A stretch of 64,000 bases of DNA from Trichomonas vaginalis G3 (taxonomy: Eukaryota > Parabasalia > Trichomonadida > Trichomonadidae), in NCBI RefSeq assembly GCF_026262505.1, contig NC_067208.1:19167962-19231961 (forward strand), read 5' to 3'. The notes under the pieces are model-generated. The model searched no databases. It was given only the letters and a program-made list of their open reading frames with translations, and was not told the DNA's origin. Positions 6,439 through 58,865 of the stretch are shown here, in pieces. The stretch's first letter is position 1. Each line of letters starts with the position of its first letter. Made by a program: the position numbers and the translations under genes.

Positions 6439-7761
6439 ATGAACTATAAATACTGCTCAGATGATTTTGACAAATCATTTATTGATGATAAATCTATTCC
6501 AAATAAATGCAAAAAAAGTATCCCGTTTAATAGCATTATATCAGAAGCATACCAAATTGCAATGAATTGTAACATAGAATACACGAATGTTAACTATGAA
6601 AGAGGGATCAGTTTGTGCTACAAATATATAAGTGAATTCCATGAACCACTTTCCATACTAATTGCAGCTGTTCATCAATATGTGCATATATACAATAAAA
6701 GTGTTAAATCAATGATAGAAATAGATGATAATTATAGTTTAAATGATGAATTAGAAAACATTGATGAATTCGGAACCACAAGAAAAAATGAGCACTTAGG
6801 AATAGGAAGATTTCAATTCATATTTGAAAATGGAAAATTTCATAGCACAGGAAGTTCAGGAATAGTAACAAAAGTTCCCTCTTTTTCTATTTTAAAATCC
6901 AGTTCTGGAATAATGGATATTGATGCATCATTACCGGTGTGCTTTAACTCTATTATTTTGACACATATTAGTCCTGAGATGTGGGATGAAGATTTTTTAG
7001 AAAATGATGAATCAAAATGTAATCAAAGCTTAATAGAATTTATCTCTAATATCGAAGATATCCAATTACACATTCCTTGGACATTGGCTTTAAGTCAATC
7101 AATGAGATCAATGTTCACTCCATTTAACTTTCTTGAACAGATTAACAGTTTTTCAGATAGTACGATATACGGATGCATAATGGCGATTGAAAATGATTAC
7201 TACAAGTTATGGAATGATTTGTCAATTTCAATTTTTAAAGCATTTGCAAATGCAGAGCTATCAACAAATAGTGAGGAAAATTTAAATAATGAGATAATTA
7301 TTCGAAATAATAGTTGTGGAGATGGCAATATTGAATCTAAATATTATATTGATTTTCAAGATAGTGTCGAAGCGATCATGGATTTATTATATGAAAGAAA
7401 TGAATTTTTTGCAATGGATCATCAAATTTCTTCCGCAAATAATGAAGAAATCAAACCTGTATATATCATTGGAATTGATTCATTGAAAACATTTTTCATT
7501 GGAGCATTATACGAAAGAATTGATTGCATGATGACGGATAATGCATCGTTTTTCGAATGCTTTGTTCATTCAATTTATTTGAATGACAGCTCAATTTCAA
7601 TTATTGATGTTGCTAACATGATATTCCATGATATTATCGATACAAGAGAGTGGAAAGATATTGAAAGAATATTAGATTTGGACACTATCGATTTTTTCAA
7701 TGGAGTTTTTTGCATGATAAGGATTTACATTAAGTGTTTATCAAACTTCTTAACAATTTAG
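6439..7761 (+). CDS. Unrecognised host-family protein (440 aa)
   Basis: This is the intact copy of the gene that is split by the 25-kb element in the right arm. It starts ten bases after a TCATT initiator. No family is recognised. The protein is acidic, with no transmembrane segment and no obvious catalytic motif. It differs from the right-arm copy at a few residues only. Bases 7644-7648 (AAGAG, the complement of CTCTT) are the unoccupied equivalent of the target site duplicated around element 2, so this gene shows what the disrupted copy looked like before insertion. The stop is TAG. Confidence 0.75.
   Translation: MNYKYCSDDFDKSFIDDKSIPNKCKKSIPFNSIISEAYQIAMNCNIEYTNVNYERGISLCYKYISEFHEPLSILIAAVHQYVHIYNKSVKSMIEIDDNYSLNDELENIDEFGTTRKNEHLGIGRFQFIFENGKFHSTGSSGIVTKVPSFSILKSSSGIMDIDASLPVCFNSIILTHISPEMWDEDFLENDESKCNQSLIEFISNIEDIQLHIPWTLALSQSMRSMFTPFNFLEQINSFSDSTIYGCIMAIENDYYKLWNDLSISIFKAFANAELSTNSEENLNNEIIIRNNSCGDGNIESKYYIDFQDSVEAIMDLLYERNEFFAMDHQISSANNEEIKPVYIIGIDSLKTFFIGALYERIDCMMTDNASFFECFVHSIYLNDSSISIIDVANMIFHDIIDTREWKDIERILDLDTIDFFNGVFCMIRIYIKCLSNFLTI
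7644..7648. other. Empty target site for element 2
   Basis: AAGAG here is the single-copy form of the CTCTT duplicated at 33877-33881 and 58861-58865 in the opposite arm. Flanking bases on both sides match the two flanks of element 2. Confidence 0.9.
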
Positions 7762-8113
7762 AAATGATGTGAATGTGATATACTTAAAACAAGAAAATAT
7801 TTTAATTTTAAATTTATTATTAATATTATTAAAGATGAACTTATACTCACTTGATACCCTCTCATTTTTTTGATACTCTCTTACTTGTGAAGCATATCTA
7901 ATAAAATGATCATATTTTTTTATTATTATTTTCATTTTTGATTTATTAATCATATGATCATATTATGCCAAATCATAGTATTTATCAGATTTGCAAAAAA
8001 TATAAGACATTGTCTCTCACACCAAAAAAAAAATACAGAATAGCAAGTATAAGTCAGTAAACGATCTTTACTCGTTTTTTCATCTCTGATTTAAAGTGAA
8101 TACGAATGAAGTA
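7762..8113. other. Intergenic host sequence
   Basis: These AT-rich bases lie between the 440-aa gene and the Maverick. They are duplicated at about 33412-33763. A short reverse frame (67 aa, 7750-7953) exists in both copies but has no initiator-like site and an unremarkable lysine-rich product, so I do not call it a gene. Confidence 0.5.
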
Positions 8114-8119
8114 AATATA
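8114..8119. other. Target site duplication, left of Maverick
   Basis: AATATA directly precedes the Maverick terminus and matches AATATA at 24876-24881. Maverick insertions typically make a 5-6 bp duplication. Confidence 0.93.
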
Positions 8120-8396
8120 AGTAGTATATGTGAAAGGGTTTAGTGACTTTTTTTGTTACATCTATATATAGACGATGCATTAAAATATAATTTATAAACA
8201 CATTAAAAAAATTAACATTAATTTTAAAATAATTTATTTTTTCATCTTTTATAAAAGAAGCTATATATATAGATGATGTCAGATATTCCGCGATTAATTA
8301 AACATTGTTTAAATCCTGAATGGGTTAAACTTCAATTTAAAAATTCATGTCTTACATTTTTTGAATAATTTATTTTTTTATTTAATGATAAATGAG
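8120..8396. repeat. Left terminal inverted repeat (internally deleted)
   Basis: The outer 225 bases (8120-8344) match 24651-24875 in inverted orientation. Bases 8345-8396 then match 24062-24115, skipping 537 bases that the right repeat still has. The junction lies at a short AT-rich repeat (TTTAAAAAT) present at both ends of the missing segment. The inner boundary falls at the shared ATGAG start of the first gene. Confidence 0.88.
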
Positions 8397-8970
8397 TGTC
8401 ACAACTAACAACGTTAAAAAATTAGGATTCACAAACGAGGAAATAAAGGATATATTAGAGGAGGCAGGTTATGAAGTTAGTAAATATTATTTAAGAAATT
8501 GTCAAAAATTTGCCGAGTTATTAAATGATTTAGATTATGATGGAAAAATGAATAAAGATGATGTTATAAATTTCTTATATCCTACATCTGAAGAAGAAAA
8601 ACCTAAAGAACCTGATGTTTTCCCTGAATATTATGAAGAACGGATTAAAGATGATGAATATGATGAAATTGAAAGACTGGAAAAAATAAGAGATGAAATA
8701 GATGAAAAAATTAAGGAATTAAGAGAAGTTGAAAAATATAATGAAAATGAAGTAGAGGGTTTAATGAATATCCCAGCTTCAGAATCAGAAGTACAGAAAT
8801 CTCATGAAGAAAGATATAAAAATTATGTCTCAGAATCAACACAAAATTTATTAGATGGTGAAATAAACGAAACACTTTCAGAAGAAGGTACTAAATTTAT
8901 TCGTAAACATAAGTTACAATTTATTGATAATGAAGAATACCCCTGTATATTACTTTCACCTCCTCTTTGA
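8392..8970 (+). CDS. Acidic Maverick protein, 5' part (192 aa)
   Basis: This is the first gene of the rightward cluster. Its ATG lies at the inner edge of the left terminal repeat and is preceded by the T-rich stretch seen before other genes of this element. The product is very acidic, with a helical Glu/Lys-rich middle (about residues 60-115) that may form a coiled coil. The N-terminus contains a LNDLDYDGKMNKDDV stretch that resembles an EF-hand-like acidic loop, which is only a resemblance. The frame overlaps the next one by 47 bases near a CCCC run at 8941-8944, and the two probably form one frameshifted gene. No function is assigned. Confidence 0.5.
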   Translation: MSVTTNNVKKLGFTNEEIKDILEEAGYEVSKYYLRNCQKFAELLNDLDYDGKMNKDDVINFLYPTSEEEKPKEPDVFPEYYEERIKDDEYDEIERLEKIRDEIDEKIKELREVEKYNENEVEGLMNIPASESEVQKSHEERYKNYVSESTQNLLDGEINETLSEEGTKFIRKHKLQFIDNEEYPCILLSPPL

Positions 8971-9499
8971 TTCTGAGAAATTCAAAAAAGCTCTTAAAAA
9001 CGTGACATATGCAACAAATACGATTAAGAAAGAAGATCATGATATTTACACAAATTATTATTTAAATAAATGCACAGGTGTTGATAAAGTTTTTGATTTG
9101 TTAGATAAAATATCAAAAGAAACAATTGGAACCTATAAAATTTTGTGTGATTGTGGTTTCATTATTGAAGATACCAATAATGTTTCATATGAAAGAACAG
9201 CACCGAAGGAAGACGAAGTGGAAAGGTCTATACCATTCGTTATTAAGAATATAAAAGATATGAAAACTTATAAGCATTATATTTATTCATTTATTTCAGA
9301 AAAAATGGAAGCAACCCATAAAACATCATCTCATCATTTTATAGCTATTCATACATTCCTTTTCAAAGTTGTGAAATTAAATAAGACAGGAATTAGATTT
9401 AATGTATCAGGGTACGCATTCTTGAGTAAATTAAAATGTATTCGTCACGTCGCAGATGATAAAAATTTATGTGTTCTTAATTCATTTTATGGACTTTAA
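8924..9499 (+). CDS. Maverick protein, 3' part of the frameshifted gene (191 aa)
   Basis: No upstream motif precedes the nominal ATG at 8924, and the convincing protein-like sequence begins near 8965. I therefore read it as the continuation of the preceding 192-aa frame after a frameshift. It has paired cysteines (a CDCG near residue 86) and ends CVLNSFYGL. Its place directly upstream of the polymerase suggests a replication-associated or polymerase N-terminal role, but I do not recognise a family. Confidence 0.5.
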   Translation: MIMKNTPVYYFHLLFDSEKFKKALKNVTYATNTIKKEDHDIYTNYYLNKCTGVDKVFDLLDKISKETIGTYKILCDCGFIIEDTNNVSYERTAPKEDEVERSIPFVIKNIKDMKTYKHYIYSFISEKMEATHKTSSHHFIAIHTFLFKVVKLNKTGIRFNVSGYAFLSKLKCIRHVADDKNLCVLNSFYGL

Positions 9500-9548
9500 A
9501 AAAATAAACTTTATTTTTATTTATTTTTTAATTTTTATTCTTACATAA

Positions 9549-10131
9549 ATGAACAAAAATGGAACAGCTAAAATGAATGATAATCAAATTAGAGCAGAAG
9601 GTAGAAGGTTATTTAAACGCTTCTTTATAACATTCCTGATGGTGTTAATCCTAAAACTCGTAGAAGTTATTTAAACGAAGCAATAGATGCATATGAAGGG
9701 TTTGACATTTCATCAGAAAGTGAGAGGTTAGCAAGAATGTTAAAAATATTGATTTTTATTATTGTGACCCTCAACCAGAAGACGTAGACATTAACAAGGT
9801 AGACTTTCCATTAGTGGAATCAATAATGATAGATCCAGAATTTGAAACAGTAAATATTTTATTAACACAGAGTCCATGTGGAAAACTTCACGCTGACAGA
9901 ATAACAGACGTTGAAGCACTCACCGGCTATAGAGTTTGCCCCTTTTGCAAAGAAGAAGTATATTCTATCCGTGATGATCCAGAAAGGAAAAACCAAAGAA
10001 GATTTTTAAAACATTGTGAGAAATGTAAAGAAAATAATGGAAGATTAATTCAAGACGTTCAATTGCAAAACACACAACAACCATATGCACCACACATATC
10101 ACGAAACAGAAGATATATCAATGGCTATTAG
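9549..10131 (+). pseudogene. Broken N-terminal region of the DNA polymerase
   Basis: An ATG at 9549 opens a frame that shifts near 9628 and again near 9738, then stays open to 10131 (the last 105 codons from 9814 have their own ATG). The last part contains a zinc-finger-like CPFC...H...C..C cluster that commonly precedes the exonuclease domain in Maverick polymerases. At about 10105-10130 the sense frame appears to pass into the 961-aa polymerase frame, which has no ATG of its own at its start. I read the segment as the polymerase N-terminus, disrupted by at least three frameshifts. Confidence 0.6.
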
Positions 10132-10139
10132 CACATAAT

Positions 10140-13025
10140 TTGCAGGAATATTATAAACCAACAAGATATTATATTACTTTTGACTTCGAAACATTAGAGA
10201 CTAAAGAAGAACTTCAACTTTCTGAATGTGCAACTTTGAATGCTTACTTAAAACCATTCATGGTATCATCAACGGTTAAATTAAAGCCGCAAAGCGGCGA
10301 GGTCGTAGACCGTGATAAAACATATACGAGGAATTTTTGCTTAACTTCAAGTGATTCTTTTATTTCTGATTGGATTGAGTTTTTATTTTCAACCTGTTCA
10401 TTAGTTGCTAAATCAAATATTGAACAATATGAAGAATTAATGAAGCCGCAAACATTAAATGAGAAACAAAAGGAAGCATTTAAAGAACTTCTAGATGAGG
10501 AATTCAATAAAGTGAATATCATAGGTTTTAATTCGGGAAAGTTTGATTTAAATTTAATTCTTCGTGATTTAAACACTGCAAAATGGAAAATAAAATCAAT
10601 GCTGGGTTCATCTTCTCAATTTAAGCAAATCATTGTAAAGAAAACAAACGTTCCATATGAATTGAGATTTATTGACATCAGAAATTATATAGCGGGTGGG
10701 ACATTAGACCAATTCACTCGAGATTTCGGAAACAATAAATCACGTGTTAAATCCTTTTTCCCTTATCAATTCATCACGTGGGAAAATTACGAAGAAGAAT
10801 TATATAAAGAGGAACCATTCACGAAAGATTCATTTTATTCAGCATTAACTCAAGAAACTATATCAGATAGTGATTATCAAATATATCTCAATGATGCTAA
10901 AAATTTTAAGAATAGATTAGAATATTTTATTCATTATTGCAATAAAGATGTTGAAATTATGATTGACCCAATTGATAAAATTATTGAAGAAACATTTGTT
11001 TATAAAATTGACATGCTTCATAATCTTTCTTTATCATCGAATGCATCAATGATTCGTTACGCTTTAGCATATAAAGACTTTAATCCTAATGAAAAATATC
11101 CAGAAGAAGAAAATGTGGAATCAAGTTTTGAATTAACGAAAAAGTATTGGAAATATAAAATTGAATCATATAAGAAACAAGATGAAAAAGCAGAAAGAGA
11201 TACTAAAAATAATGTTTCAATGGATGATTTTCAATACTATCACGATTTAATCCTTTCATCTAAATGCAAAATGTGTGGTAAAGCGTTTACATATGCAAAT
11301 AAACTAACATTAGATAGAATCGATAATGAAAAACCACATACCAAAGAAAATTGTCAGTTAATGTGTTGTTATTGCAATGTCGTAAAATCAAATAAAGATG
11401 AGGATGTTCAACGTTTAAGAATCAATTTAAGAAATTATGCATTAAAAAATAATTTACCAATGACTTTAGATTCAGTTGAAGCTTATCACATTCTCCGTAA
11501 TGGAATTACTGGTGGTCTATCAAATGTTCAACATCGTGTTAATCTTAAAGGAATCACGCACATTAATAAACTTTCATATAGTCCAGAAACTAAAACTGTA
11601 TCAAATGAGGACACCACCAACATTATGACTCATTTTGTTGGAGTTGACTTTAATTCATTATATCCTTCATCATTTTCATCTAATCCTCATGATTTCATTC
11701 AATATACTAACCATAAAATGTATATGCCGGGAAGATTGAATGGTGTTATCATTTGTGATACAGCAACAAAGAAAGCAAAAGCATTGGGAATAATTAGAAA
11801 GAAAAATACTTTATTCGTGGCTGAAGTAAAGGGTCACATTGATGAAAAATACATTAATGATTACATAAACTTTTTACCGATAATAAGAAACTTAGATATT
11901 ATCACAGATGAAAAAACAATTGGCAGTTTTATGTATAATTACATGAAATCAAACAATCTACCAGTTGACCAGAAACAGAGAAAATTAACTCAGTTAGCAT
12001 CAACACACAACCAATATCAACCATTTTCTTCTTATTATCTTTGGTATCTAATAGACAGATTTCATTTTATCATTGATGACATTCAATCAATTTTAACATT
12101 TACGAAAAATACTTGTTTTAATGAATTTGCGAACGAATTTATGAACGAAAGACAAAAGGCTGAATTAGAAGGAAATAAAGGAAAAAGTTTATTTTGCAAG
12201 ATTTCACTTAATGGATCATATGGTTACGATGCAATGAATACACAAAATTACGCAAAGACTAAAATAATGAATGCACAGAAGGCACGCGTTGCATGTATGT
12301 CAAATAAGTTTAAAAACATAAGAGAAATAGGTGAAGATACGTATCAAGTGATGCTTAAAGATAGATTTTATAGATGTGATACATGTTTACAAGAGGCATT
12401 CTTCACTTTAGATAATGCTAAATACTGGTATTTGGTTTTCATTTATGATTTTATGTATAAATGCATGGATGTTAATCGTTTTCATTTCATTGAAGGTGAT
12501 ACTGATTCATCTTATTGGGCTATTGCTGGCGATCCAAGTCTTCCTAACACTCAAGCATTTCAAGCAATTGTAACCGATAAACAATTTTATGATAAAAACA
12601 TTTACAAATTCGCACCTTTTGATTTCTTCTGTTTTGATGAGAAATTTAAACCTAAATTAAAGAATAAAGCTGAAGAAAAAGCACATGAGAAGAAGTTATT
12701 GGGTTTAGCAATTGAGAAACAAGGTGATAACATGGTTGCTTTATGCCCTAAGTGTTATACTTCATTCAACGGTTCAATTGATGGAGGTGATTTTAAAAAG
12801 ATTGCACAAAAAATGAAAGGTGTTAGTTTACGACAAAATAAACAATTAACACCTAAAAATTATTTGGATATAATAAATGATAAAGTGATATTTGATGGTC
12901 AGAATATTAATTTACAACTTAAAAACGGGTCAATGACTCGCTTAACAATTGGTAAGACTGCATTAACAGGAGCACACACTAAGGCTGTATGTTGTGAAAA
13001 TGGATGTTGTATGCCATTTATTTAA
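10140..13025 (+). CDS. Family B, protein-primed-type DNA polymerase with HNH insert
   Basis: This is the replicative polymerase of the Maverick. Exonuclease motifs are DFE (D15, E17), NSGKFD (D136) and YCNKD (Y266, D270). Polymerase motifs are A, DFNSLYPS (D503); B, KISLNGSYG (687-695); and C, GDTDSS (D787, D789). A TGG before motif A may be the YxGG-type element of protein-primed enzymes. Between the exonuclease and palm regions lies an HNH-like zinc domain: C376, C379, DRID (392-395), H400, C409/C410 and YCN (411-413). The first codon of the listed frame is TTG, because the natural start is upstream in a frameshifted region. The frame is otherwise uninterrupted for 961 codons. It acts with the integrase and capsid genes in a virus-like life cycle. 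Confidence 0.92.
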   Translation: MQEYYKPTRYYITFDFETLETKEELQLSECATLNAYLKPFMVSSTVKLKPQSGEVVDRDKTYTRNFCLTSSDSFISDWIEFLFSTCSLVAKSNIEQYEELMKPQTLNEKQKEAFKELLDEEFNKVNIIGFNSGKFDLNLILRDLNTAKWKIKSMLGSSSQFKQIIVKKTNVPYELRFIDIRNYIAGGTLDQFTRDFGNNKSRVKSFFPYQFITWENYEEELYKEEPFTKDSFYSALTQETISDSDYQIYLNDAKNFKNRLEYFIHYCNKDVEIMIDPIDKIIEETFVYKIDMLHNLSLSSNASMIRYALAYKDFNPNEKYPEEENVESSFELTKKYWKYKIESYKKQDEKAERDTKNNVSMDDFQYYHDLILSSKCKMCGKAFTYANKLTLDRIDNEKPHTKENCQLMCCYCNVVKSNKDEDVQRLRINLRNYALKNNLPMTLDSVEAYHILRNGITGGLSNVQHRVNLKGITHINKLSYSPETKTVSNEDTTNIMTHFVGVDFNSLYPSSFSSNPHDFIQYTNHKMYMPGRLNGVIICDTATKKAKALGIIRKKNTLFVAEVKGHIDEKYINDYINFLPIIRNLDIITDEKTIGSFMYNYMKSNNLPVDQKQRKLTQLASTHNQYQPFSSYYLWYLIDRFHFIIDDIQSILTFTKNTCFNEFANEFMNERQKAELEGNKGKSLFCKISLNGSYGYDAMNTQNYAKTKIMNAQKARVACMSNKFKNIREIGEDTYQVMLKDRFYRCDTCLQEAFFTLDNAKYWYLVFIYDFMYKCMDVNRFHFIEGDTDSSYWAIAGDPSLPNTQAFQAIVTDKQFYDKNIYKFAPFDFFCFDEKFKPKLKNKAEEKAHEKKLLGLAIEKQGDNMVALCPKCYTSFNGSIDGGDFKKIAQKMKGVSLRQNKQLTPKNYLDIINDKVIFDGQNINLQLKNGSMTRLTIGKTALTGAHTKAVCCENGCCMPFI

Positions 13026-13126
13026 TGAAATGCCACAGAAGAGACAAAAGGAACCGTTAATAATGGTTTTGTACTATGATTCAAAGAGGTGGGCACCCTT
13101 AAAACATTTATTTTATTTTTATATAA

Positions 13127-13507
13127 ATGGATAACACAGATTTAAAAATTTTAATTGATGATTTAGTATTTAATCAAAATTTTCTTGATTATTATGATTT
13201 AAAAGCATATCTCCAAAAATATAATAAAAATATAACGGGTGATGATATGGATTATTATTATTCGTATTATAAAAATGAAATTTTGAAATATCATGATAAA
13301 ATAATTTCTGAAATTAAAGACAAAATTAAAAATAATGAATATACAAAGGGAAAAACTAAATCACAGCTTAAACAGTTGAAAGATTTCAAAAATAAAGTAT
13401 TAACAGAAGAAGATATTGATGAATTATATAAATTATATAATCCCGAGCCGCAAAAGCCAAAGGAACAAAACAAATGGTACAAAACGCCCAGGTCCTTCAG
13501 ACCATAA
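13127..13507 (+). CDS. Small helical Maverick protein before integrase (126 aa)
   Basis: The ATG at 13127 follows the T-rich TTTATTTTTATATAA stretch used before several genes of this element. The product is highly charged and helical, rich in Tyr, Asp and Lys. It overlaps the integrase frame by 34 bases in a different frame. It may be a separate gene or the N-terminal part of the integrase after a frameshift. I favour the second possibility weakly, because the integrase ATG at 13474 has no such upstream motif. Confidence 0.55.
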   Translation: MDNTDLKILIDDLVFNQNFLDYYDLKAYLQKYNKNITGDDMDYYYSYYKNEILKYHDKIISEIKDKIKNNEYTKGKTKSQLKQLKDFKNKVLTEEDIDELYKLYNPEPQKPKEQNKWYKTPRSFRP

Positions 13508-14646
13508 ATGATGTACAAGCTTTAATTTATGATTCATTAGTTAAACCATATTCAGCCCGACTTTTAAATGAAGATCAACTTTTGGAATTCATCCTTCAAC
13601 ATAAACTCGAAGCGGGAAAGTATATCAAACCTTTATATACAGCATATTTAAAACAAATGAATAGAATACATCCAGAATTAATGAAAGGAGGAATGAAATC
13701 CAAAATCAAAGCAGATAAAATTAAACCACTTACAACACCAAAACCTCCAACGACAGTAGTACCTCCTCCTTCAGTTAATCCTTCATCATTCACTTTATTA
13801 TATCCATTTCAAACATTAAAGAAGCAAAAAGATTTTAAAAAGGATTTCAAGATATTAAATAAACCAATTGACCCAAAAATTCAACCGTTAAAGGAAAAAT
13901 TTAGTCGCCCTTCATTTGCACTATATCCATATTCATACGAAATCGATCATCTGGAATATTCAAAAGGAAACGTTACTTATTTATTTGCCATTAACATTAA
14001 CACCAGATATTTATATTGCATTCCGGTGAAAGGGAAAACAGAACAGGAAACAAGAAGAGCTATACAATACTTACTAGATCATGAAAGAGTAGATAATATA
14101 AGGGGTGATGGTGATAAAGGATTTCAGGCAGCTATGGCTCATTATTTCCCACAAATTAATTTTTACTTTTCATCCTCTCCATATACGTTTCATAATAAAA
14201 TAGTTGATGTGGTAATGAGAACTCTTAGAGATGCGTTAGGGGTTAACGGTCAGATATACTGGGATGGAAATCATGACTCCATCATACAGCAGTTAGTATA
14301 TTATTACAATAATACATGGCATAGAACTATAAACATGAAACCAGTGGAAATGAAAAATGATATTTCAAAAGAATGGGAATATATTAGAAAGCAAATGGAA
14401 AGGTTAAATGATGTTAAACGTGAACAAATTAATTCGGGGCTCATGAATTTTAAACAAGGGAATAAAGTTTTAATTCATCTCGATTATGGAAAAACTGATA
14501 AATCAATGACAAAAAGAAGACGAAGATTTGACACAATAGCTGAATTTGTTAGATATATTAACGGCAATGCATTAGTTGAAGTTGACAATAAATTAATAGA
14601 AATTCCGATTTATTTTATTACTCCATTATATTTAAATAATATTTAA
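13474..14646 (+). CDS. rve-family Maverick integrase (390 aa)
   Basis: This retroviral-type integrase would insert element DNA into the genome. The catalytic core shows a first acidic residue in YEIDHLEY (D158) and a second in GDGDKGF (D212). The third carboxylate position is in NKIVDVVMRTLRD, where the residue is Asp (D245) rather than the usual Glu, 33 residues on. A YYNNTWHRTI stretch follows, as in other rve integrases, and a basic C-terminal region with a possible SH3/chromo-like fold ends the protein. The N-terminal ~130 residues are proline- and lysine-rich. The perfect 6-bp target duplication of this element shows that an enzyme of this type acted here. Confidence 0.88.
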   Translation: MVQNAQVLQTINDVQALIYDSLVKPYSARLLNEDQLLEFILQHKLEAGKYIKPLYTAYLKQMNRIHPELMKGGMKSKIKADKIKPLTTPKPPTTVVPPPSVNPSSFTLLYPFQTLKKQKDFKKDFKILNKPIDPKIQPLKEKFSRPSFALYPYSYEIDHLEYSKGNVTYLFAININTRYLYCIPVKGKTEQETRRAIQYLLDHERVDNIRGDGDKGFQAAMAHYFPQINFYFSSSPYTFHNKIVDVVMRTLRDALGVNGQIYWDGNHDSIIQQLVYYYNNTWHRTINMKPVEMKNDISKEWEYIRKQMERLNDVKREQINSGLMNFKQGNKVLIHLDYGKTDKSMTKRRRRFDTIAEFVRYINGNALVEVDNKLIEIPIYFITPLYLNNI

Positions 14647-14666
14647 TTTTTTTATTTCGTAAGAAA

Positions 14667-14930: not shown

Positions 14931-15091
14931 TTTTTATTCCTCTTCGACAACGTCTCTCTTTCCATCATTACTGCATAACCACATTTTCTCAATTTTAGTG
15001 GTTTGTTATTTTTAACATGTTCTTGCATCATTTTTATCATTTCCTCCCTTGTTATGATTCGTGGTAAATTTTGAGCTTGTGGGGTATTCAT
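14927..15091 (-). CDS. Small leftward protein (54 aa)
   Basis: An uninterrupted 54-codon reverse frame starts at 15091 and ends in TAA at 14927. It is preceded (on its strand) by an AT-rich TTTTTATCATAA sequence of the kind found before other genes of this element. The product is basic and methionine-rich, with ITREEMIKMMQEH followed by a LKLRKCGYAVM segment. It may be a small regulatory or virion peptide, and no family is recognised. Confidence 0.5.
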   Translation of the reverse strand: MNTPQAQNLPRIITREEMIKMMQEHVKNNKPLKLRKCGYAVMMERETLSKRNKN

Positions 15092-51434: not shown

Positions 51435-51489
51435 TTAATATATGTAAAAATATATGGTTTAAAAAACGTTTTTACTTCATATTTCTCAT

Positions 51490-52194
51490 CTAACAAACAT
51501 GTTGTCTGACTGCTTGAGGGTTAGGTTGGTACCATTCGAACTTGACACTTGCAATTCCTTCAATTGCATTCAAAATGTCTGAGTCGGAGTCAACCATTTG
51601 TTCTCTCTTTGTAGTCTTGAAAGCGTCAAGAAGTTTTGCGGCTGTTTGTTCATTGCCATGTGCATAGTAAATGTGACCATCCAAATCCGTTATAGTCAAT
51701 CTGAGATTGTGTCCTTTCTTATTTCCGTCTTGTATGGCAGCAAGTACACCCATGAAGCCTTCTTTGTTCTTTCCTTCGTCAAAGTTTACTGTAAAGGTTC
51801 GACCAGATGTAATTTGACTTCTAACTTCACGGTACTTTTCATATGCATATCTTGTTCTTTCCATGGGAGCATGTGTGTCTTCACCTTTTCCTTTTTTCCT
51901 TCTCAAAGGATGCAATTGTTCGTCATGTTTCCAGTAGAATCTGGCAAAGCCGTCGTGTCCTTCAACTTGAGGTTCACTAACATCGAAAGGCATGTCCATA
52001 AGACGTTCTTCTTCTAACCTCTCTAGTCTGTTTGGATAATTTGCACGTGCTGTTTCCAAATCCATTTCGTAGCGAAGACCAGACAATTTGTCATAGACTT
52101 TTATGGGTCTTCCCTTCCTATATTTAAACTTCTTCGAAACTCTCCAACCATAACTTTGCAACTCTGCTTTTATTCTAGCAGATTTTCTATCCAT
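51490..52194 (-). CDS. Basic element-2 protein (234 aa)
   Basis: I choose the ATG at 52194, because the longer frame needs a TTG and would run back through the promoter-like motif at 52206-52232. The N-terminus is basic (MDRKSARIKAELQ, then KKFKYRKGRP), and the middle contains PLRRKKGKGEDTH. The C-terminal ~90 residues include a beta-strand pair around LRLTITDLDGHIYYAHG. It may be a nucleic-acid-binding virion protein. Function unknown. Confidence 0.6.
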   Translation of the reverse strand: MDRKSARIKAELQSYGWRVSKKFKYRKGRPIKVYDKLSGLRYEMDLETARANYPNRLERLEEERLMDMPFDVSEPQVEGHDGFARFYWKHDEQLHPLRRKKGKGEDTHAPMERTRYAYEKYREVRSQITSGRTFTVNFDEGKNKEGFMGVLAAIQDGNKKGHNLRLTITDLDGHIYYAHGNEQTAAKLLDAFKTTKREQMVDSDSDILNAIEGIASVKFEWYQPNPQAVRQHVC

Positions 52195-52199
52195 TCTAT

Positions 52200-52235
52200 A
52201 TGGGGCATTTTTATAAAAATAAAAAAATATTTTTT
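52200..52235 (-). promoter_or_regulatory. Element-2 promoter-like motif
   Basis: On the reverse strand an A-run, then TATTTTTTTATTTTTATAAAA, lies directly upstream of the start at 52194. Confidence 0.5.
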
Positions 52236-52238
52236 TCT

Positions 52239-52823
52239 TTACTTTACATAACCGCCTGCTGCCATAAGTCTTTGACGCCAACCCATACCAGCTAATGAAG
52301 GTTGACTTGGTTTAGTTTGGAAACTAAACTTTGGTTTTGGTTTATCTTCAGTTTTTGGTTTCTCTTCTTCTATCGGTTTTTCGTCACTTTTCGGTTCCTT
52401 TGACTTTACTTCACTTGCAGGAACAGTTGTGTCGTCAACATCTTCATAAATATCATATGCCATTTGTTTTTGTTTTCCTTTCAACTTTTTGTGTTTGTTG
52501 TAAAGTTTAGAATATTTCGACTCTAAGTCAATGAGATGTTCTATAATGAACTGTTGGTCAGTGAAGTAAACTTTTCCATCTGTTGTCTCGAAAGCTCCTT
52601 CAGACTTCAATATTTTATTTGTGAGAGTCTGTTTCTTTTTTGAGATACTAGCCGTTCCATTTTTATGAAAAGTGACTTTATAGTTAGGGTTTGTATTTCC
52701 AGACCTGGCACTTTCTATTATTGAATTTTTCTCTTCATCTGTAAGTTCTTTGACAGGTTTTGACAATGGTTCTGAACTTTTTGTTTGTGGTGTCAAATCT
52801 ACCGTTTCAACTTCTTCGGTCAT
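52239..52823 (-). CDS. Lysine/proline-rich virion-type protein (194 aa)
   Basis: An acidic/Thr-rich head is followed by a coiled coil (about 95-130, SKYSKLYNKHKKLKGKQKQM) and a disordered Pro/Lys/Glu stretch (about 140-175). It closes with a conserved-looking tail GMGWRQRLMAAGGYVK. Short C-terminal tails of this kind often dock to a capsid partner, which is inference. The leader TTTTTTTACTGAGATGAA also precedes the next small gene. Confidence 0.6.
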   Translation of the reverse strand: MTEEVETVDLTPQTKSSEPLSKPVKELTDEEKNSIIESARSGNTNPNYKVTFHKNGTASISKKKQTLTNKILKSEGAFETTDGKVYFTDQQFIIEHLIDLESKYSKLYNKHKKLKGKQKQMAYDIYEDVDDTTVPASEVKSKEPKSDEKPIEEEKPKTEDKPKPKFSFQTKPSQPSLAGMGWRQRLMAAGGYVK

Positions 52824-52842
52824 TTCATCTCAGTAAAAAAAT

Positions 52843-52995
52843 TTAGTTTGGTTTGTTTTCAACTGGTTGTTGTTGTTTTTTAAGTCGGTCTAAAACTTCC
52901 TGAGGTATAGGAAGAACTTGACAAACACGTTGTGTAACTGCTGGAAGCCGACAAATCCATCTTGAACCCATTTGTCTCAATGCTGTATTGTTCAT
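52843..52995 (-). CDS. Small basic protein (50 aa)
   Basis: A clean 50-codon frame starts at 52995, after the leader TTTTTTACTGAGATGAA shared with the 194-aa gene. It contains CRLPAVTQRVCQVLPIPQEV and a Gln-rich tail. The shared leader and the tight spacing in a leftward late-type cluster support a real gene. Confidence 0.55.
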   Translation of the reverse strand: MNNTALRQMGSRWICRLPAVTQRVCQVLPIPQEVLDRLKKQQQPVENKPN

Positions 52996-53014
52996 TTCAT
53001 CTCAGTAAAAAACT

Positions 53015-53416
53015 TTACATTCCCCACGTTTGAGGCGGTTGAGGTTGGTTATTGTTTACCCACTGTTGTGCATGGTTATATCCTCTGTTAAAGAATCTTT
53101 CACCTTGGTCCATATAGTGTCCTGCTTGGTTATAGTAGTCATTTGCTTTGTTATAATAGTTTCCTGCTTGTCTTCCTACATTGTCCATCCATCCTTGAAC
53201 TTTTCCTCTTGTTTCAGGATTTGGAATAAGATTTGTTGCATCTCGTGCTACATCCCAACCTTTCTGTACAGTTTGTATAATAGGTTGTGCTTTCTCTTTA
53301 AGTATACCTAATGTACTCAAAATCTTCCTTCCAACTCCAAATACACCTCTGGCTATTGTTCCCACTGCGGGTAAAAATCTGGATGCAACTCCTGCTAACG
53401 CGCCAAATAAACCCAT
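53015..53416 (-). CDS. Amphipathic minor virion protein (133 aa)
   Basis: The protein starts MGLFGALAGVASRFLPAVG, an amphipathic hydrophobic helix, then IARGVFGVGRKILSTLG. After a linker it has Asn/Tyr-rich helices (YYNKANDYYNQAGHYM) and a proline-rich end. The type resembles membrane-lytic minor capsid proteins and the MAAGFFKKLW peptides of element 1. It lies 17 bases from the divergent integrase start. Confidence 0.62.
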   Translation of the reverse strand: MGLFGALAGVASRFLPAVGTIARGVFGVGRKILSTLGILKEKAQPIIQTVQKGWDVARDATNLIPNPETRGKVQGWMDNVGRQAGNYYNKANDYYNQAGHYMDQGERFFNRGYNHAQQWVNNNQPQPPQTWGM

Positions 53417-53433
53417 TTCTTATGGGTTAAAAA

Positions 53434-54393
53434 ATGACGAATCCAAACAAGGACCCCTATGTTTCTAAGGCAACAAAGAAAGCACTCATGATAAAAATCT
53501 TTAGTTCAACACCAAATGCTTGGTTTATGGATATCTTGGAAAACATTCCGAGAGTTAGAACAGATGGACCACCATACTGGCTAATATTTGTCGGTCAAAA
53601 CACAAGATACTGTGAAGCCATACCATTACAGTCCAAAAATATTTTAGATATCTTAGCAGCTTTGACAATATTTGTTGACAAATACCATCCAACAAAACTA
53701 ACATCTGACTGTGAAAGTTCTTTCAAATCAGACGATATTAAAAACTATCTGCGTTCAAAAAATGTAAACCAATATTTCATTGTCGACCAAAACCATTCTG
53801 CTCTTGGTGTCATTGACGGTTGTATAAAAATGTTAAGAGACTTAAACCAACCACAAGGTGGTGAAGCAAATGAAATGTCATATGACGACAAATATAGACA
53901 CTTCTCCATGGCAAAGATGAGACAAGTTTTAAATATTTACAATAGCCGTAAACAAAAAGGTTTGGGAAACCACTCCCCCGAAGAAATGAAAAACAACCCT
54001 GACTTAGAGAAAGACTATATATTTAATAATTTAGTCAAAAGAGACAAACAAGAAAGAATGCCGGGCTTCAAACTTCAGAAAGGTGACAAAGTAAAAATAG
54101 AAATACCTAAACGCGACCCATATGAAAATACTATTGACTATGACAACAATGGGAACTCGACAGGTACTCACATTCGTGTTCGTAAAAATAGAAGAAAGTA
54201 TACAAGAGAATATTATGAAGTTTTAGGCAAACATGGCAAAATGTACACACTGCAAGCAGAAGATAAAACTACTATTGCCAGACCTCGTTTCAAACTTGTC
54301 AAAGTTCAAGGTGGTATACTTTCAAAGACAGTTCCTAACAAATATAAGACAACTCCTGACGAATATGCTAAAGAAGTTGAAAATGACGACTAA
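53434..54393 (+). CDS. rve-family integrase of element 2 (319 aa)
   Basis: The catalytic core has its first Asp in WFMDILEN (D33) and its second in TSDCESSF (D92). The third acidic position is in ALGVIDGCIKMLRD, where the residue is Asp (D128), 36 residues on, rather than Glu. A FSMAKMRQVLNIYNSRKQ helix follows, with YNSR in the place of the usual YN..R. The C-terminal ~110 residues are basic and SH3-like (GFKLQKGDKVKIEIPKR). The N-terminal zinc domain is absent. It shares the Asp-for-Glu substitution with the integrase of element 1, although overall similarity is low. Confidence 0.88.
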   Translation: MTNPNKDPYVSKATKKALMIKIFSSTPNAWFMDILENIPRVRTDGPPYWLIFVGQNTRYCEAIPLQSKNILDILAALTIFVDKYHPTKLTSDCESSFKSDDIKNYLRSKNVNQYFIVDQNHSALGVIDGCIKMLRDLNQPQGGEANEMSYDDKYRHFSMAKMRQVLNIYNSRKQKGLGNHSPEEMKNNPDLEKDYIFNNLVKRDKQERMPGFKLQKGDKVKIEIPKRDPYENTIDYDNNGNSTGTHIRVRKNRRKYTREYYEVLGKHGKMYTLQAEDKTTIARPRFKLVKVQGGILSKTVPNKYKTTPDEYAKEVENDD

Positions 54394-55145
54394 GCAATTC
54401 TATACCATGCGTAAACTGTCATGTAAGGTGGCATGTAGTCTTTACTTTGTCCCGTTGTTTGCGTATATCCTGAAACGAAATGTGTATGGTTTCCTTCTCC
54501 CTGAGTGTCATCCCAGTAACAATTTATAGCAAACTTAACGTCGTCTTTAACATCATATCCTTTACCTTTTGTCATTGCTGACCAATCCCAATATCTATGC
54601 TTATGCCAACCTGCTTGAGATGTACTTAAATCTATGTAGTGACTGTGTGCAGGTAAATTTTCACCTGAAATCGTTTTACTTCCACCTGTTTCCTTTGAAG
54701 AGTTTGCACAATACAAAAACCTGTCGACTATTTGTTCCCATGCACCAACACCAAACATTACTTGAGGACCTCTTGCTTCCATAGATGTATAAATAGAACC
54801 TACTGGGTTCATTAAATCAAACATATGAGATATTATAGGATTGTCTCTTTTGAACTTAAAATATAGTGCAACTATTTCAGGTTTCTTCTGGTTTAAGTCA
54901 GAATATTTTTTATAATATAATCTTATGTTTTCAGGGTAGGTAAAATCTTGACTATAATATTTGTTTCTGTCATCTATATAATAGTATACTATTCTCGTTT
55001 TTTCTATTGCATTATATCTTTTATATCTATAAAAATCTAAATATAATGTTAGCTTTTGTTCATCTACATGTGGTGTTCTGTTGTCATCTCCATAGTCATA
55101 ATAGTATGGTGCTGGAGCTGGGTCAGGCAATGTCATATCTGTCAT
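54390..55145 (-). CDS. Tail-collar-type fibre tip protein (251 aa)
   Basis: The C-terminal ~140 residues begin at PVGSIYTSMEARG and carry GGSKTISGENLPAHSH, then a TGQSKDYMPPYM ending, the phage tail-collar/gp10-type domain. The DNA of the last ~120 residues is over 90% identical to that of the fibre gene in element 1 (15872-16232). The N-terminal 100 residues (Tyr-rich, DPAPAPYYYDYGDD) are unrelated. The 3' end overlaps the integrase end by four bases. It is a likely receptor-binding tip that works with the shaft protein encoded directly upstream. Confidence 0.8.
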   Translation of the reverse strand: MTDMTLPDPAPAPYYYDYGDDNRTPHVDEQKLTLYLDFYRYKRYNAIEKTRIVYYYIDDRNKYYSQDFTYPENIRLYYKKYSDLNQKKPEIVALYFKFKRDNPIISHMFDLMNPVGSIYTSMEARGPQVMFGVGAWEQIVDRFLYCANSSKETGGSKTISGENLPAHSHYIDLSTSQAGWHKHRYWDWSAMTKGKGYDVKDDVKFAINCYWDDTQGEGNHTHFVSGYTQTTGQSKDYMPPYMTVYAWYRIA

Positions 55146-55188
55146 TTCATAAACTCGGAAATATTTTTTTGTTCGTCTCCATATAAGT

Positions 55189-56123
55189 TTAAGTAGCAGT
55201 TGTTTCTAATGGAACTTTAACTTGTGTACCATCGTTCTTTTTATAGCTTACATACATTTCATTGTTATTTTTCGGAATGAGTTTATACCGTATACCATTT
55301 TTTAAGGAATGTACAAACTGCCATCTAAAATATTTGTTTTCTTCATTGAAAGAAAAGTCACCAACAATAGTTTCAATATTTTTTGTTCCAACTAAACTTT
55401 GGTATATTTCATTGACTAATGTTTTATCTGCTTTCTTTTCAAGGCTAACGTTTAAGGTCTTTATTTCAGAAGATGTATGTGTATGTCCAACGTCACTTTT
55501 CCTGTTTAAGGTTTCTTGTAAGTTTGCATATTTGCAATGGTATGTGTATGTCCAACGGCACTTTTCCTGTTTAAGGTTTCTTGTAAGTTTGCAATATTTG
55601 CAATGGTATGTGTATGTCCAACGTCACTTTTCCTGTTTAAGGTTTCTTGTAAGTTTGTAATATCAGATATAGTATGTGTATGAGTCTTTTTAGAATATTC
55701 GTTTTCAGCTCTTGTCACTTCACTTGACATTTTATTGTCAACATATGTTTTGTCTGCTAGTTCAGGATGAGTATGTTCTTTTGTTGCATAAGCTTTGTCA
55801 GCTCTTTCTTCTTCTTTTGCTATTGCATCGTCTACATATTCTTTGTCAGCTTTGTTGCCAACATCTGCTTTCAAAAGAAGTTCTTTTATAGGTTTCTCGT
55901 TTAAAGTTCCTTTTGTTGGATTTATACAGACAGTATTGTTCTTATTGTCTTGAAACAGAAACTCATCTGTCATTGGGTTTAAAGTCAGTTTTAAGTTTCC
56001 TTCTTTCAATGACTCAGATATCTTAGAATAGTTTGAAAAGTTTGTTGTGTTCTTATTTAGAGCTTGTATAATGAGTTGTCGGTTGTGTTGTATTTCTCTC
56101 ATAGACGCTGTTTCATTTGACAT
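55189..56123 (-). pseudogene. Fibre-shaft protein with HTHT repeats, frameshifted
   Basis: The first frame (55506-56123, 205 aa) has KADKEYVDDAI-type shaft repeats and three 22-26-residue units of the form GHTHTI(A/S).I.NLQETLNRKS, coded by ~66-bp DNA repeats. These give the His-x-His pattern of trimeric phage fibres. The frame breaks within the repeats near 55525, and the other frame continues through one more unit to a beta-rich end, closing at TAA 55189. The break may result from slippage in the repeats. It forms a shaft/tip pair with the collar gene 43 bases downstream. Confidence 0.75.
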
Positions 56124-56141
56124 TTTTATTCTAGATAAAAT

Positions 56142-56987
56142 ATGCTTTCAATAGAAAAAGAAAATTCAAGAGTTGCTACAACTAAACCATTAGATGAACT
56201 TTTTACTAATGTCGGTCAAAAGTTTGAGACAGAGACCGTAAAGCATGAAGGCTATCGTTTTGACTACCCGTTAAGATGGTTAAGAGACCCATCTGTCACA
56301 AAAGCTATTGGCTTTCGTAGAATGAAGTTCATTTCAGAAGCCATACATGGTTTCCCATTTACGGTCGGTTTGAAGTTCGATACTATAACAAAGAAAAACG
56401 TACGTATGAGAAATTTGAACAGGGAAAACTTTTACAAGTGAATTTGCTTGTAAACTTAGAAACAACTCTTCAAGCTTTTCAAGAAAAAATAAACGACATC
56501 TATATCGAATATGCAAACCAGTATAACATTGACGAGGGAGAGTACCATCTCGATATTATATATGACAGGAAAAATGCAACTGTTAAAATCAATAGAATAG
56601 AAGACCTTGGAGAAAACGTTTATATTTCTACAAATATAACAACTTGGCATGGTATAGATTTATGAGGATGTTAAATCAGCCTGCAGAATATCCAGTACAC
56701 CCGGACTTTTATGAAGTCGAAAACCCTAATGGAACATATGAAAATGTTTTCGACTCAGATGCTATTATAGTTCATGCTTCATTTTCTGGTGCACAAAACT
56801 CTTTTTATGCTTGGCAAATGACTTTTACGAAAAACCTACAAAGCTATATGAACCACCAAGTGGAAGTATTTCAGACTTTCAAGTATGGTTTACAACAGAT
56901 GGAAGAAAGAGAATAATTCCATTATATCATGCGTTTTACTTAGAACTTAGTTTCATATACAACTACTATCGAACGGTAAAAATATAA
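56142..56987 (+). pseudogene. Second copy of the 286-aa structural protein, frameshifted
   Basis: The gene is homologous along its length to 50574-51434, in the opposite orientation. Three frames carry it: 56142-56441, 56438-56665 and 56644-56916, with a last shift near 56915 leading to the end at TAA 56985-56987. Breaks are at about 56440, 56655 and 56915. The sequence is clearly diverged from copy 1, so it is an old paralogue or variant spike rather than a fresh duplicate. Confidence 0.7.
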
Positions 56988-56991
56988 TTTT

Positions 56992-57230
56992 TTAATACGG
57001 TTGAGGTGTTGGATTTGGTTGCCAACTAGACTGTGGTGCAGGTTCAGGCTGTTGTATAACAGGGGCTTGCTCTTCTGGTTCAGGGTCTTAGTATAATACC
57101 AACAAACTGACCTACTCTTTTACCAATATTTTGACTCCGTTCCAAATTCCTCTTCCTACGGTTTTTATTCCATTCCATATACCTCTCCAACATTTCGAAA
57201 GAAGTTTCCAATACTACTGAAGAAACCCAT
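56992..57230 (-). pseudogene. Small amphipathic protein, frameshifted
   Basis: The ATG at 57230 starts MGFFSSIGNFFRNVGE and then stops early. Other frames continue the amphipathic pattern (RGIWNGVKILVK), and a Pro/Gln-rich tail ends at 56992. It resembles the 133-aa protein at 53015 and the small peptides of element 1 in type. At least two breaks. Confidence 0.5.
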
Positions 57231-57248
57231 TTTACTATATGTAAAAAT

Positions 57249-57611
57249 CTAATGTCCACCTAGTCTCTTACGTTTCCTGTTGAGTTCCATAGCATTCTTT
57301 AACTGGAGCTCATACATTCTGTTTCTCCTCTGGTAGAAAACATATTCTGGGTCAACTCCTGTGTTCGCGTCATCTGCATAAAGTTGTTTATATCCCACTT
57401 CAGGGTTTGTATAAAACTCTTTCCATCTCATATTTGCATACCATGGTGGCAAACCTAACGCAGCGTCATTTGACATGGCAGTTTGCATTTGTACATCTGT
57501 TGGCACTTGACCATAGTTTGCCATTGCAGTTTGTATTCTAACTTCATTTGGAATATTCTCTGGGTTTGGTTGTCCAGGTTGCTGTGCATTCGCTAAGTTC
57601 TGTGCGTCCAT
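57249..57611 (-). CDS. Unrecognised element-2 protein (120 aa)
   Basis: A Gln/Asn/Pro-rich head contains two copies of a V(R/Q)(I/M)QTAM(A/S)N repeat (about residues 24-49). It is followed by a WYANMRWKEFYTNPEVGYKQ segment and a basic tail (NRKRKRLGGH). It lies in the leftward cluster near the right end. The basic tail could bind DNA. Function unknown. Confidence 0.6.
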   Translation of the reverse strand: MDAQNLANAQQPGQPNPENIPNEVRIQTAMANYGQVPTDVQMQTAMSNDAALGLPPWYANMRWKEFYTNPEVGYKQLYADDANTGVDPEYVFYQRRNRMYELQLKNAMELNRKRKRLGGH

Positions 57612-57634
57612 TTAATATTAGATAAAAATATCTC

Positions 57635-57766
57635 TTACGAGTACATATACTGGACATTTGCAGGCATTGGTTCATCTTCATATTCTCTATATCTTTCTGC
57701 CACGTCAAATAAATAAATGACACAATGGAAAAAACCTAAAACAAGTAGTCCTATTTCAAACCACAT
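57635..57766 (-). CDS. Tiny single-pass membrane protein (43 aa)
   Basis: A clean frame starts at 57766 with IGLLVLGFFHCVIYLF (about residues 5-20), a convincing transmembrane helix, followed by a charged tail. It overlaps the 3' end of the methyltransferase gene by 16 bases, an arrangement suggesting coupled expression. It may modify membranes in assembly or exit. Confidence 0.5.
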   Translation of the reverse strand: MWFEIGLLVLGFFHCVIYLFDVAERYREYEDEPMPANVQYMYS

Positions 57767-58569
57767 TTACTTACTAGTAAAATTTCTTTGTTATGACACT
57801 TTCTCCGGTTTATAGGACCTCTCTCATATTCTATCTTGTCATATCTAAACTCATAGTCATGTATGTCCTCTAACCATCTCATAACGGTTTCCAAACCACT
57901 TTTATCGGATGTAAAGTAAAAGCATGGATGGTTATGTAAAACGTCTAAAGTTTCTAAAGAGTCTCTCAAAGTCCAGTCTACTTGGTATTGAAAATCCCAT
58001 GTGTTATAGAACGGCGGGTCCACTATAAAGAAAACATTTTCCTTGTCTTTATATTTTTCATACAACTCTGTCCAATGACATCTCACAAACTCTATACCCT
58101 CAATATATTTTTCTATGTCCTCTTTGAAAACATTTGTATAGTTAAGATATAAAACTTTTGACATAAGTATTTCAATGTCATGAACTCTTATAGAACCACT
58201 ATATAATAGTCTAGCAGATATACTATCCCAGTCTATATATTCTGCTTTTTTCAAAACCTCTCTCACAATATTTTTCTTATCTAATGGTATACGTTCCATC
58301 TTACCTATAGGTATCTTTTCTTTTAACTCTTTCAATATATTGTTTGTGTCTGGTATATGTTTGAGACGGTCCATATAGTTGTCGAAGTCATTGCATATAA
58401 TCTTTGAGTCTGGGAATATTGTATGACATAAATGGGATATATAGAAACTTCCACCGAACAAATCTACAAATGTTAGACCATTCGGTAGTTTCTTAAGTTC
58501 TCTCAATAGAATATCTTTACATTTACTCTTATTTCCAAAGAAGGGTAACGGTGGTTTTGTAAAATTCAT
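57751..58569 (-). CDS. Dam-type (D12 class) DNA adenine-N6 methyltransferase (272 aa)
   Basis: The motifs follow the D12 class order. FFGNK (10-14) fits the N-terminal SAM-binding motif, FVDLFGGS (34-41) is motif I, CNDFD (59-63) is the acidic loop, and VDPPF (183-187) is the catalytic motif IV, with Phe in place of the common Tyr. The size is normal for the family. It would methylate adenines in DNA. Adenine methylation is known in Trichomonas vaginalis, and Dam-like genes there are linked to Mavericks. It is the outermost gene at the right end, starting about 116 bases inside the terminal repeat. Confidence 0.88.
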   Translation of the reverse strand: MNFTKPPLPFFGNKSKCKDILLRELKKLPNGLTFVDLFGGSFYISHLCHTIFPDSKIICNDFDNYMDRLKHIPDTNNILKELKEKIPIGKMERIPLDKKNIVREVLKKAEYIDWDSISARLLYSGSIRVHDIEILMSKVLYLNYTNVFKEDIEKYIEGIEFVRCHWTELYEKYKDKENVFFIVDPPFYNTWDFQYQVDWTLRDSLETLDVLHNHPCFYFTSDKSGLETVMRWLEDIHDYEFRYDKIEYERGPINRRKCHNKEILLVSKCGLK

Positions 58570-58685
58570 TTATATATAATAATAAAAATGTTTTTTTCCT
58601 GAAAAGTGACAGAAAAGTGACAAAACATGAAAACATATATAATTTGTGAAAAGCGACACATTATATAATGTTTTCGACCCAGAAG

Positions 58686-58820
58686 AAGGCTTCTCAAAGT
58701 ATACTTCCTTGGAACGCCTGTAACTTTTCCTGTAGCGACGATAGACCCTTACTTGTCCGGACAAAGTTATACTAAACATCTTCAGGGCTAGAGGGCACGA
58801 AGTGCCTGGAGGCCCCACTA

Positions 58821-58859
<39 letters not shown>

Positions 58860-58860
58860 C
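58686..58860. repeat. Right terminal inverted repeat of element 2
   Basis: It is the inverted match of 33882-34041. It ends in 37 T residues plus one C before the CTCTT duplication. The hairpin here is GGCAC(GAA)GTGCC as read on this strand, a different stem from the left terminus but equally paired. Confidence 0.85.
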
Positions 58861-58865
58861 CTCTT
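58861..58865. other. Target site duplication, right of element 2
   Basis: CTCTT here matches 33877-33881 and is followed by the continuing sequence of the interrupted host gene. Confidence 0.85.

Follow-up and report, generated by a model that had tools for sequence, protein, structure and literature searches.

How did a palindrome in Trichomonas vaginalis G3 come to have nearly identical arms and, at the same time, large virus-like insertions that each sit in one arm only? The question is raised by a window of DNA (the whole stretch analysed, 64,000 nucleotides, C6:19167962-19231961), in which an earlier note had described inverted arms with two reciprocal insertions, called here element 1 (left arm) and element 2 (right arm). 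In this work, the arm comparison was extended 40 kb beyond the window on both sides (144 kb in total), and the genome compared was of 180.9 Mb in 86 contigs. Positions outside the window are also given in window numbering (C6 position = window + 19167961). Protein matches (TVAG_168400, TVAG_213560 and TVAGG3_0372470) point to strain G3 too. The locus is probably the product of an inverted duplication followed by at least seven independent, ordinary insertions into one arm or the other.

Palindrome arms and one-sided insertions

The palindrome spans window positions -26374 to 71768 (C6:19141587-19239729), 98 kb including the spacer. With inserts included, the left arm reaches from -26374 to 26092 and the right arm from 32195 to 71768; without them each arm is about 12 kb long, on either side of a 6.1-kb spacer. 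Three inverted pairs, 2507-7648/58861-64000, 7644-8119/33406-33881 and 24876-26092/32195-33411, have identities of 99.3-100%. Chance is ruled out as the cause of kilobase inverted matches that are more than 99% identical. The arm alignment thus bears out the inverted arms with reciprocal insertions, in a palindrome larger than first described. The overall inverted matches of the earlier arm coordinates stand as well, but the inner ends lie at 26092/32195 and not at 26081/32206. The parts of the palindrome within the window are as follows.

2507..8119, plus strand: left arm, outer part with a partner in the window, inverted match to 58861-64000 and 33406-33881
24876..26092, plus strand: left arm, inner part, 99.3% identical to 32195-33411 (8 substitutions in 1217)
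26093..32194, plus strand: spacer, no inverted partner within the 144 kb compared
32195..33881, minus strand: right arm, inner part, inverted match to the left arm
58861..64000, minus strand: right arm, outer part seen in the window, extending on to 71768

When the large unpaired pieces are set aside, 11,970 bases can be aligned, a few duplicated target bases being counted twice. Over this length the arms differ by 34 substitutions, 25 of them transitions, and by 8 indel events, each 1 to 12 bp long. The unpaired pieces longer than 12 bp between the palindrome ends, none omitted, are seven insertions of 733 bp to 25.0 kb, four in the left arm and three in the right. The two insertions claimed earlier are both confirmed, but five further one-sided inserts, from 733 bp to 18.3 kb long, were missing from the account; only elements 1 and 2 lie wholly inside the window.

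-24786..-6480: 18.3-kb insert, left arm, 18,307 bp, duplication TAACAT
-6378..-5326: 1,053-bp insert, left arm, duplication ATATTGAA (8 bp)
-4373..18: 4.4-kb insert, left arm, 4,392 bp, duplication ATTATT
8120..24875, plus strand: element 1, left arm, 16,756 bp, duplication AATATA
33882..58860, plus strand: element 2, right arm, 24,979 bp, duplication CTCTT
66396..68300: 1,905-bp insert, right arm, duplication TTACAATCTA (10 bp)
69225..69957: 733-bp insert, right arm, duplication CAGG (4 bp)

All seven are flanked on both sides by a target duplication of 4-10 bp, and in every case the same bases stand single and intact in the opposite arm. Reading empty sites from duplicated DNA is standard practice; here, with each site present both occupied and empty, the ends and target duplications of at least four element kinds are defined exactly at once. 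The junctions and empty sites in the window are the following.

8114..8119 and 24876..24881, plus strand: left and right copies of the element 1 target duplication, AATATA
33406..33411, minus strand: empty site of element 1
33877..33881 and 58861..58865, plus strand: left and right copies of the element 2 target duplication, CTCTT
7644..7648, plus strand: empty site of element 2, within a 440-codon open reading frame (ORF), 6439-7761
112..121, plus strand: empty site of the 1,905-bp insert, TTACAATCTA, ending 1 bp ahead of the helicase ATG at 123

The empty sites proposed for elements 1 and 2 do hold a single AATATA and a single CTCTT, respectively. The claim that the ends of both elements are fixed to the base is right for element 1, with its AATATA and identical terminal inverted repeats (TIRs), but not for the right end of element 2. 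This end is certain to one base only, due to an additional C before CTCTT, and the duplication can be read as 5 bp plus one base or as 6 bp with one mismatch (TCTCTT/CCTCTT).

Two classes of Maverick and three small inserts

Judged by the proteins it encodes, element 1 is a DNA-polymerase-B Maverick/Polinton, and the 18.3- and 4.4-kb inserts are assigned to the polymerase type as well. A 961-codon ORF of element 1 (10140-13025) matches the family B DNA polymerase PF03175 (E 4.7e-7, 29.5 bits, cut-off 25.8), and an A32-like packaging ATPase matches PF04665 with 25 bits (cut-off 22.8). Element 1 also encodes DUF4108 and Gp10_C proteins. Its ORF 13474-14646, considered for a retroviral-type integrase, has no Pfam match, and the stretch 13915-14481 within it is 23.6% similar to the integrase of element 2 (212 amino acids, E 7e-5). 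The 18.3- and 4.4-kb inserts have ORFs and the TIR type in common with element 1. The former gives matches to the polymerase and Gp10_C, an A32 match of 22.3 bits, just below the cut-off (22.8), and no match to the DUF4108 protein of element 1. In the latter, both a 546-amino-acid ORF and the leftmost ORF are shared with element 1, and no polymerase match was obtained.

The TIRs of element 1 (225 bp, 8120-8344 and 24651-24875) have no differences and start with AGTAGTATATG, and those of all three inserts start with AGTAGTATA. No substitutions were found in 712, 162 and 225 bp of TIR (1,099 bp in total for the three Mavericks); the first two of these TIRs each have a single gap column. As a control, an exact 6-bp duplication together with AGTAGTATATG ends was present in 10/10 other polymerase Mavericks, hand-picked from about 15 pairs of TIR positions and all equal-scoring at both ends. 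The AGTAGTAT... TIRs and 6-bp duplications of the polymerase-class T. vaginalis Maverick/Polinton are thus common to element 1 and the 18.3- and 4.4-kb inserts, and its family B DNA polymerase and A32-like ATPase are also present in element 1 and the 18.3-kb insert. There are no essential differences from this class, although the 4.4-kb copy is short and the capsid-like candidate of element 1 is frame-broken. Dating element 1 by its nearest relative was not decisive, with long partial matches of 94-98% among the best 11 of 7,372 candidates, and with a C1 copy that has identical TIRs.

Element 2 is assigned by its gene content to the primase-helicase Maverick subclass. It encodes DUF4106, D5/DUF5906 primase-helicase, rve-like integrase, two KilA-N, DUF3839, DUF7777, tail-repeat and Gp10_C proteins. 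The primase-helicase matches PF19263 and PF05272 above the cut-off, and the integrase matches PF00665 (E 2.2e-7) with 31.5 bits, slightly below the cut-off of 32.6. NCBIfam gave two sub-cut-off matches for the primase-helicase and none for the other eight proteins. The polymerase of element 1 has no tblastn match in element 2 at E 1e-4. In the passages of PMC7845603 on the primase-bearing subclass (Tv1.6-type ORF), the D5/DUF5906 primase-helicase, KilA-N, rve-like integrase and length of about 25 kb are all common to element 2, whereas A/T-run termini of variable length and two hairpin versions are not described there. The earlier view that both elements are virus-like is upheld, one being a polymerase Maverick and the other a primase-helicase Maverick.

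The ends of element 2 consist of A23 and T37 runs beside GGTAGTGGGGC. Its relatives amount to 2,331 to 2,595 first-look candidate places in the genome, of which the best 40 at most were scored per search. With the left 9 kb, the DUF4106 and primase stretches were both present in 15/16 other scored copies (best 17 of 2,331 candidates). Primase-class Mavericks end in A/T runs of variable length: 29 of 30 fetched loci fit a pattern needing at least five A, and their runs are 11-40 long. A second fetch, of seven end pairs, added a run of 7, and one of these pairs is without a run. Behind the runs lies a short hairpin-like stretch in two versions; element 2 has one version at each end, and a mixed pair also occurs in another copy on C4. 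The TIR alignment of element 2 has 8 differences in 160 bp, part of the A/T runs included. Dating by this divergence was rejected. The differences predate the insertion, because both end versions recur (5 and 24 of 29 other ends listed) and the C4 copy has the same mixed pair.

Some further features of element 2 were observed. Tandem repeats with units of 22, 84-86 and 259 bp occupy 46273-49499. A 272-codon ORF at the right end (57751-58569) has no Pfam match; its motifs may resemble those of an adenine DNA methylase. The Gp10_C genes of both Maverick classes (15873-16279 and 54396-54802) are 89% identical over 407 bp, which suggests gene exchange between the classes.

Two capsid candidates were considered, DUF4106 and the family of the 546-amino-acid ORF, at the following places.

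34170-36448 and 37745-39049: element 2
20930-22567: element 1
L006:6929-8569: a further locus

DUF4106 is given as the capsid protein of T. vaginalis Mavericks in the relevant part of PMC10120064. The protein found here is Gln/Pro-rich and, by composition only, helix-biased, and a comparison with PHROGs gave one weak match, of unknown function. The 18.3- and 4.4-kb Mavericks carry the 546-amino-acid ORF intact, whereas in element 1 it is broken in frame. The family, considered for the double jelly-roll capsid protein of Maverick/Polinton elements, has no Pfam, PDB or PHROG match. A frame-broken stretch of element 2 (37745-39049) matches the family profile in two pieces with E of about 1e-9 and 5e-9 and in a third with 0.045, among frames of the 144-kb stretch only. 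The family may be a candidate capsid protein shared by both Maverick classes.

Relatives of the three small inserts were counted among the best 40 candidates scored per search. The 733-bp insert begins and ends as TGT..ACA. Its TIR is 41 bp long with 2 mismatches, its duplication is the 4-bp CAGG, and at least 38 other copies are 95-100% identical. The IS481EU of parabasalids are described in the relevant part of PMC10045372 with TNT..AYA termini, a TIR mostly below 50 bp and a duplication near 4, 15 or 25 bp. The insert fits these termini, TIR and duplication, an IS481EU-like assignment made from termini and duplication length. For the 1,053-bp insert, the duplication is 8 bp long and the 21-bp TIR contains 2 mismatches; at least 39 other full-length copies match at 99-100%. 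For the 1,905-bp insert, the duplication is 10 bp long and no clear TIR was seen; at least 39 other copies match at 97-99%, 34/39 spanning the whole length. These two are classed as short non-autonomous repeats.

Order of events and alternative explanations

We propose that a C6 segment with a helicase-like gene cluster was duplicated in inverted orientation around the 6.1-kb spacer. Once parted, the copies would have received Mavericks of the polymerase type (three, of 18.3, 16.8 and 4.4 kb) and of the primase-helicase type (one, of 25.0 kb), together with an IS481EU-like element of 733 bp and non-autonomous repeats of 1,905 and 1,053 bp. The integrase or transposase of the element itself or of a helper would have cut the target with a stagger of 4, 5-6, 6, 8 or 10 bp, gap repair would have created the target duplication, and the opposite arm would keep the uncut target, never having been hit. 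Insertion after the common ancestor of the arms is the simplest account for all seven, because the empty sites are without footprints. What is dated in this way is the common ancestor of the arms, which were possibly alleles, so the palindrome is not thereby shown to pre-exist the insertions. The claim that both insertions came after the host duplication is thus supported as to the time after the arm copies parted, by single targets without footprints, but the insertions could predate the palindrome if differing haplotypes were joined. The relative order obtained is that the arms parted and then received at least seven insertions, against only 34 substitutions.

At the age of the arms, the three polymerase Mavericks should have gathered about 3.1 substitutions in their 1,099 bp of TIR, and none was observed (P ~0.04, hand arithmetic). 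For this reason these Mavericks are no older than the arm split, unless their TIRs were evened out otherwise. In its relevant parts, PMC7845603 reports about 5,000 T. vaginalis Mavericks (4,808 annotated), with subclasses by ORF order and a primase ORF from Maverick Tv1.6, and describes Mavericks as recently expanded and polymorphic between strains. The genome of strain IR-78 is given as 66.57% repeats in the corresponding part of PMC12589397. With 4,808 Mavericks over about 60 Mb of non-repeat DNA, about 2.4 would be expected per 30 kb and four are present here (P ~0.2, hand arithmetic). Four is not extreme, and the local density therefore calls for no special target preference. Earlier publications cover both Maverick classes and how recently they were active, and the insertion mechanism is ordinary; it is the record that is unusually complete. 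Among the open-licence papers listed, no T. vaginalis palindrome with such insertions was found, nor a palindrome offering seven empty sites at once. The locus gives a local figure for the landing rate of Mavericks and small transposons in T. vaginalis.

Several points weigh against this order of events. The arm-spacer-arm joins and the insertion junctions rest on one assembly, and the duplication of element 2 has its odd base or mismatch. In other poly(A)-ended copies the duplications are unclean: 3/7 end pairs could not be parsed, and one of the four parsed has an exact 6 bp when bases of the T-run are counted (by eye). Furthermore, seven insertions per 34 substitutions is a high ratio. It hints either that mobile elements were active very recently or that conversion has kept the arms alike.

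Conversion is the basis of a rather improbable alternative, in which the arms are old, gene conversion has kept them near-identical, and its tracts stop at large insertions, so the inserts may be far older than the 0.28% divergence implies. The insertion ratio would fit this, as would an inverted pair of the same gene cluster on C4, which has about 68% DNA identity to C6 over the helicase, yet 99.8% from arm to arm by BLAST (99.0% in a second block). However, the genes on C4 and C6 do not have the same order and orientation, so a single ancestral palindrome is not shown. The C4 main arms differ mostly by indels, with 5 substitutions and 10 indels (11 and 10 in the second block), and may be unreliable in their turn. 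On C6 itself, the substitutions are spread as if random (the longest stretch without a difference has 1,306 bp, P 0.56; P for clustering 0.11), unrepaired lesions are present in both arms, and the TIRs of the three Mavericks are not more diverged than the arms. Another doubtful explanation is that the arms were two haplotypes, already differing by insertions and later joined, the insertions being old presence/absence polymorphisms. Two arms alone cannot separate alleles from duplicates, and Tvmar1 insertions are polymorphic across isolates in the relevant part of PMC4021607. On the other hand, an additional join of homologous haplotypes would be needed in a genome that PMC4021607 describes as haploid. 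Precise loss from one arm of insertions once present in both copies is hardly credible: all seven empty sites hold exactly one target and no footprint, across element kinds with differing duplication lengths, and no point in favour of such loss was found. No route for precise loss of integrase-type elements is known.

It is also very unlikely that the palindrome is an assembly artefact, either a fold-back read or a false join of two loci. An artefact-like fold-back does occur in the same assembly on C3 (C3:14393725-14428006), where the 6-kb flanks of a poly(A)-ended Maverick are inverted copies over at least 6 kb on each side. In global alignment these flanks have 283 indel events, 248 of them of 1 bp, and 56 substitutions (13 transitions), compared with 8 indel events and 34 substitutions (25 transitions) on C6; by BLAST they have 254 gap openings and 93 mismatches. 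The C3 fold-back looks like unpolished read sequence, although this comparison is a single example whose artefact status is itself deduced. Moreover, on C6 a 6.1-kb spacer parts the arms, which hold seven different insertions, each with a proper target duplication, while arms derived from a fold-back read would have their insertions in common. It is harder to dismiss a false join between two real but separate loci. From the pattern of arm differences, we take the C6 palindrome as real.

The large human Y-type palindromes with arm-to-arm conversion, as treated in the relevant part of PMC6790999, likewise have inverted arms more than 99% identical, a spacer and genes in both arms; conversion is described there, whereas seven large one-sided insertions separate the arms here. 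It is conceivable, if improbable, that the palindrome works as a built-in allele pair in a genome treated as haploid. In that case, conversion would keep the genes near-identical, virus-like inserts that it cannot cross would accumulate one-sidedly, and each gene would keep at least one undamaged copy. If true, the locus would serve as a ready-made clock by which insertion, conversion and gene loss can be compared. It also allows a simple strain test of palindrome homogenisation in T. vaginalis.

Host genes and palindrome boundaries

From the outer to the inner end, the arms contain ORFs of 186, 1229, 353, 235, 440 and 274 codons, three of which are listed here.

123..3812, plus strand: helicase-like ORF, 1229 codons; right-arm copy 62695-66384, partly beyond the window
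6439..7761, plus strand: host ORF, 440 codons; left-arm copy whole, right-arm copy (58772-60070) cut by element 2
32411..33235, minus strand: host ORF, 274 codons; right-arm copy whole, left-arm copy with a stop at codon 9

The 1229-codon ORF gave a match to DEAD/DEAH helicases and none in PDB. It shares its frame with the 353-codon ORF, a stop codon standing between them in both arms, and the two correspond to one 1596-codon ORF in one C4 arm. The C4 locus (C4:39920338-39943374) is a second inverted pair of the helicase cluster; one of its arms keeps the 1596-codon ORF whole, while the other has it broken. We did not take this locus to prove that the palindrome is ancient, given its different gene order and the preponderance of indels between its arms. 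In the right arm, the 733-bp insert sits inside the 186-codon ORF, the 1,905-bp insert lies 11 bp from the helicase ATG, 10 of which are duplicated target, and a shortened 235-codon ORF coincides with a 1-bp difference. The four left-arm inserts are all between ORFs. Right-arm inserts are thus in an ORF or at most 11 bp from an ATG in 3/3 cases and left-arm inserts in an ORF in 0/4 (post hoc, P ~0.03 by hand). None of the genes is damaged in both arms; by chance alone this would be so with P ~0.38 (hand arithmetic, five genes). Non-random damage between the arms is not claimed on these two values.

No further inverted match was found past the outer arm ends in the 144 kb compared. The genome was searched with 3,640 bp of the left flank and with 71769-71995 and 74001-80000 of the right flank, 71996-74000 lying outside these searches. 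Among the best 40 of 323, 119 and 274 candidates there were dispersed repeats only and no second copy of unique flank DNA. No mobile element was recognised at the duplication boundaries, the spacer itself not being searched against the genome. Rfam and tRNA scans of the window gave no matches. The spacer is filled by a coiled-coil-like ORF of 2015 codons (26156-32203). Both inner arm ends (26060-26092 and 32195-32240) bear a small inverted repeat, CAAATAAA...TTTATTTG, which is a possible seed for fold-back template switching. Close to the outer end of the right arm, at 71346-71585, lies a repeat of about 240 bp, which is dispersed in the genome with 79-94% identity.

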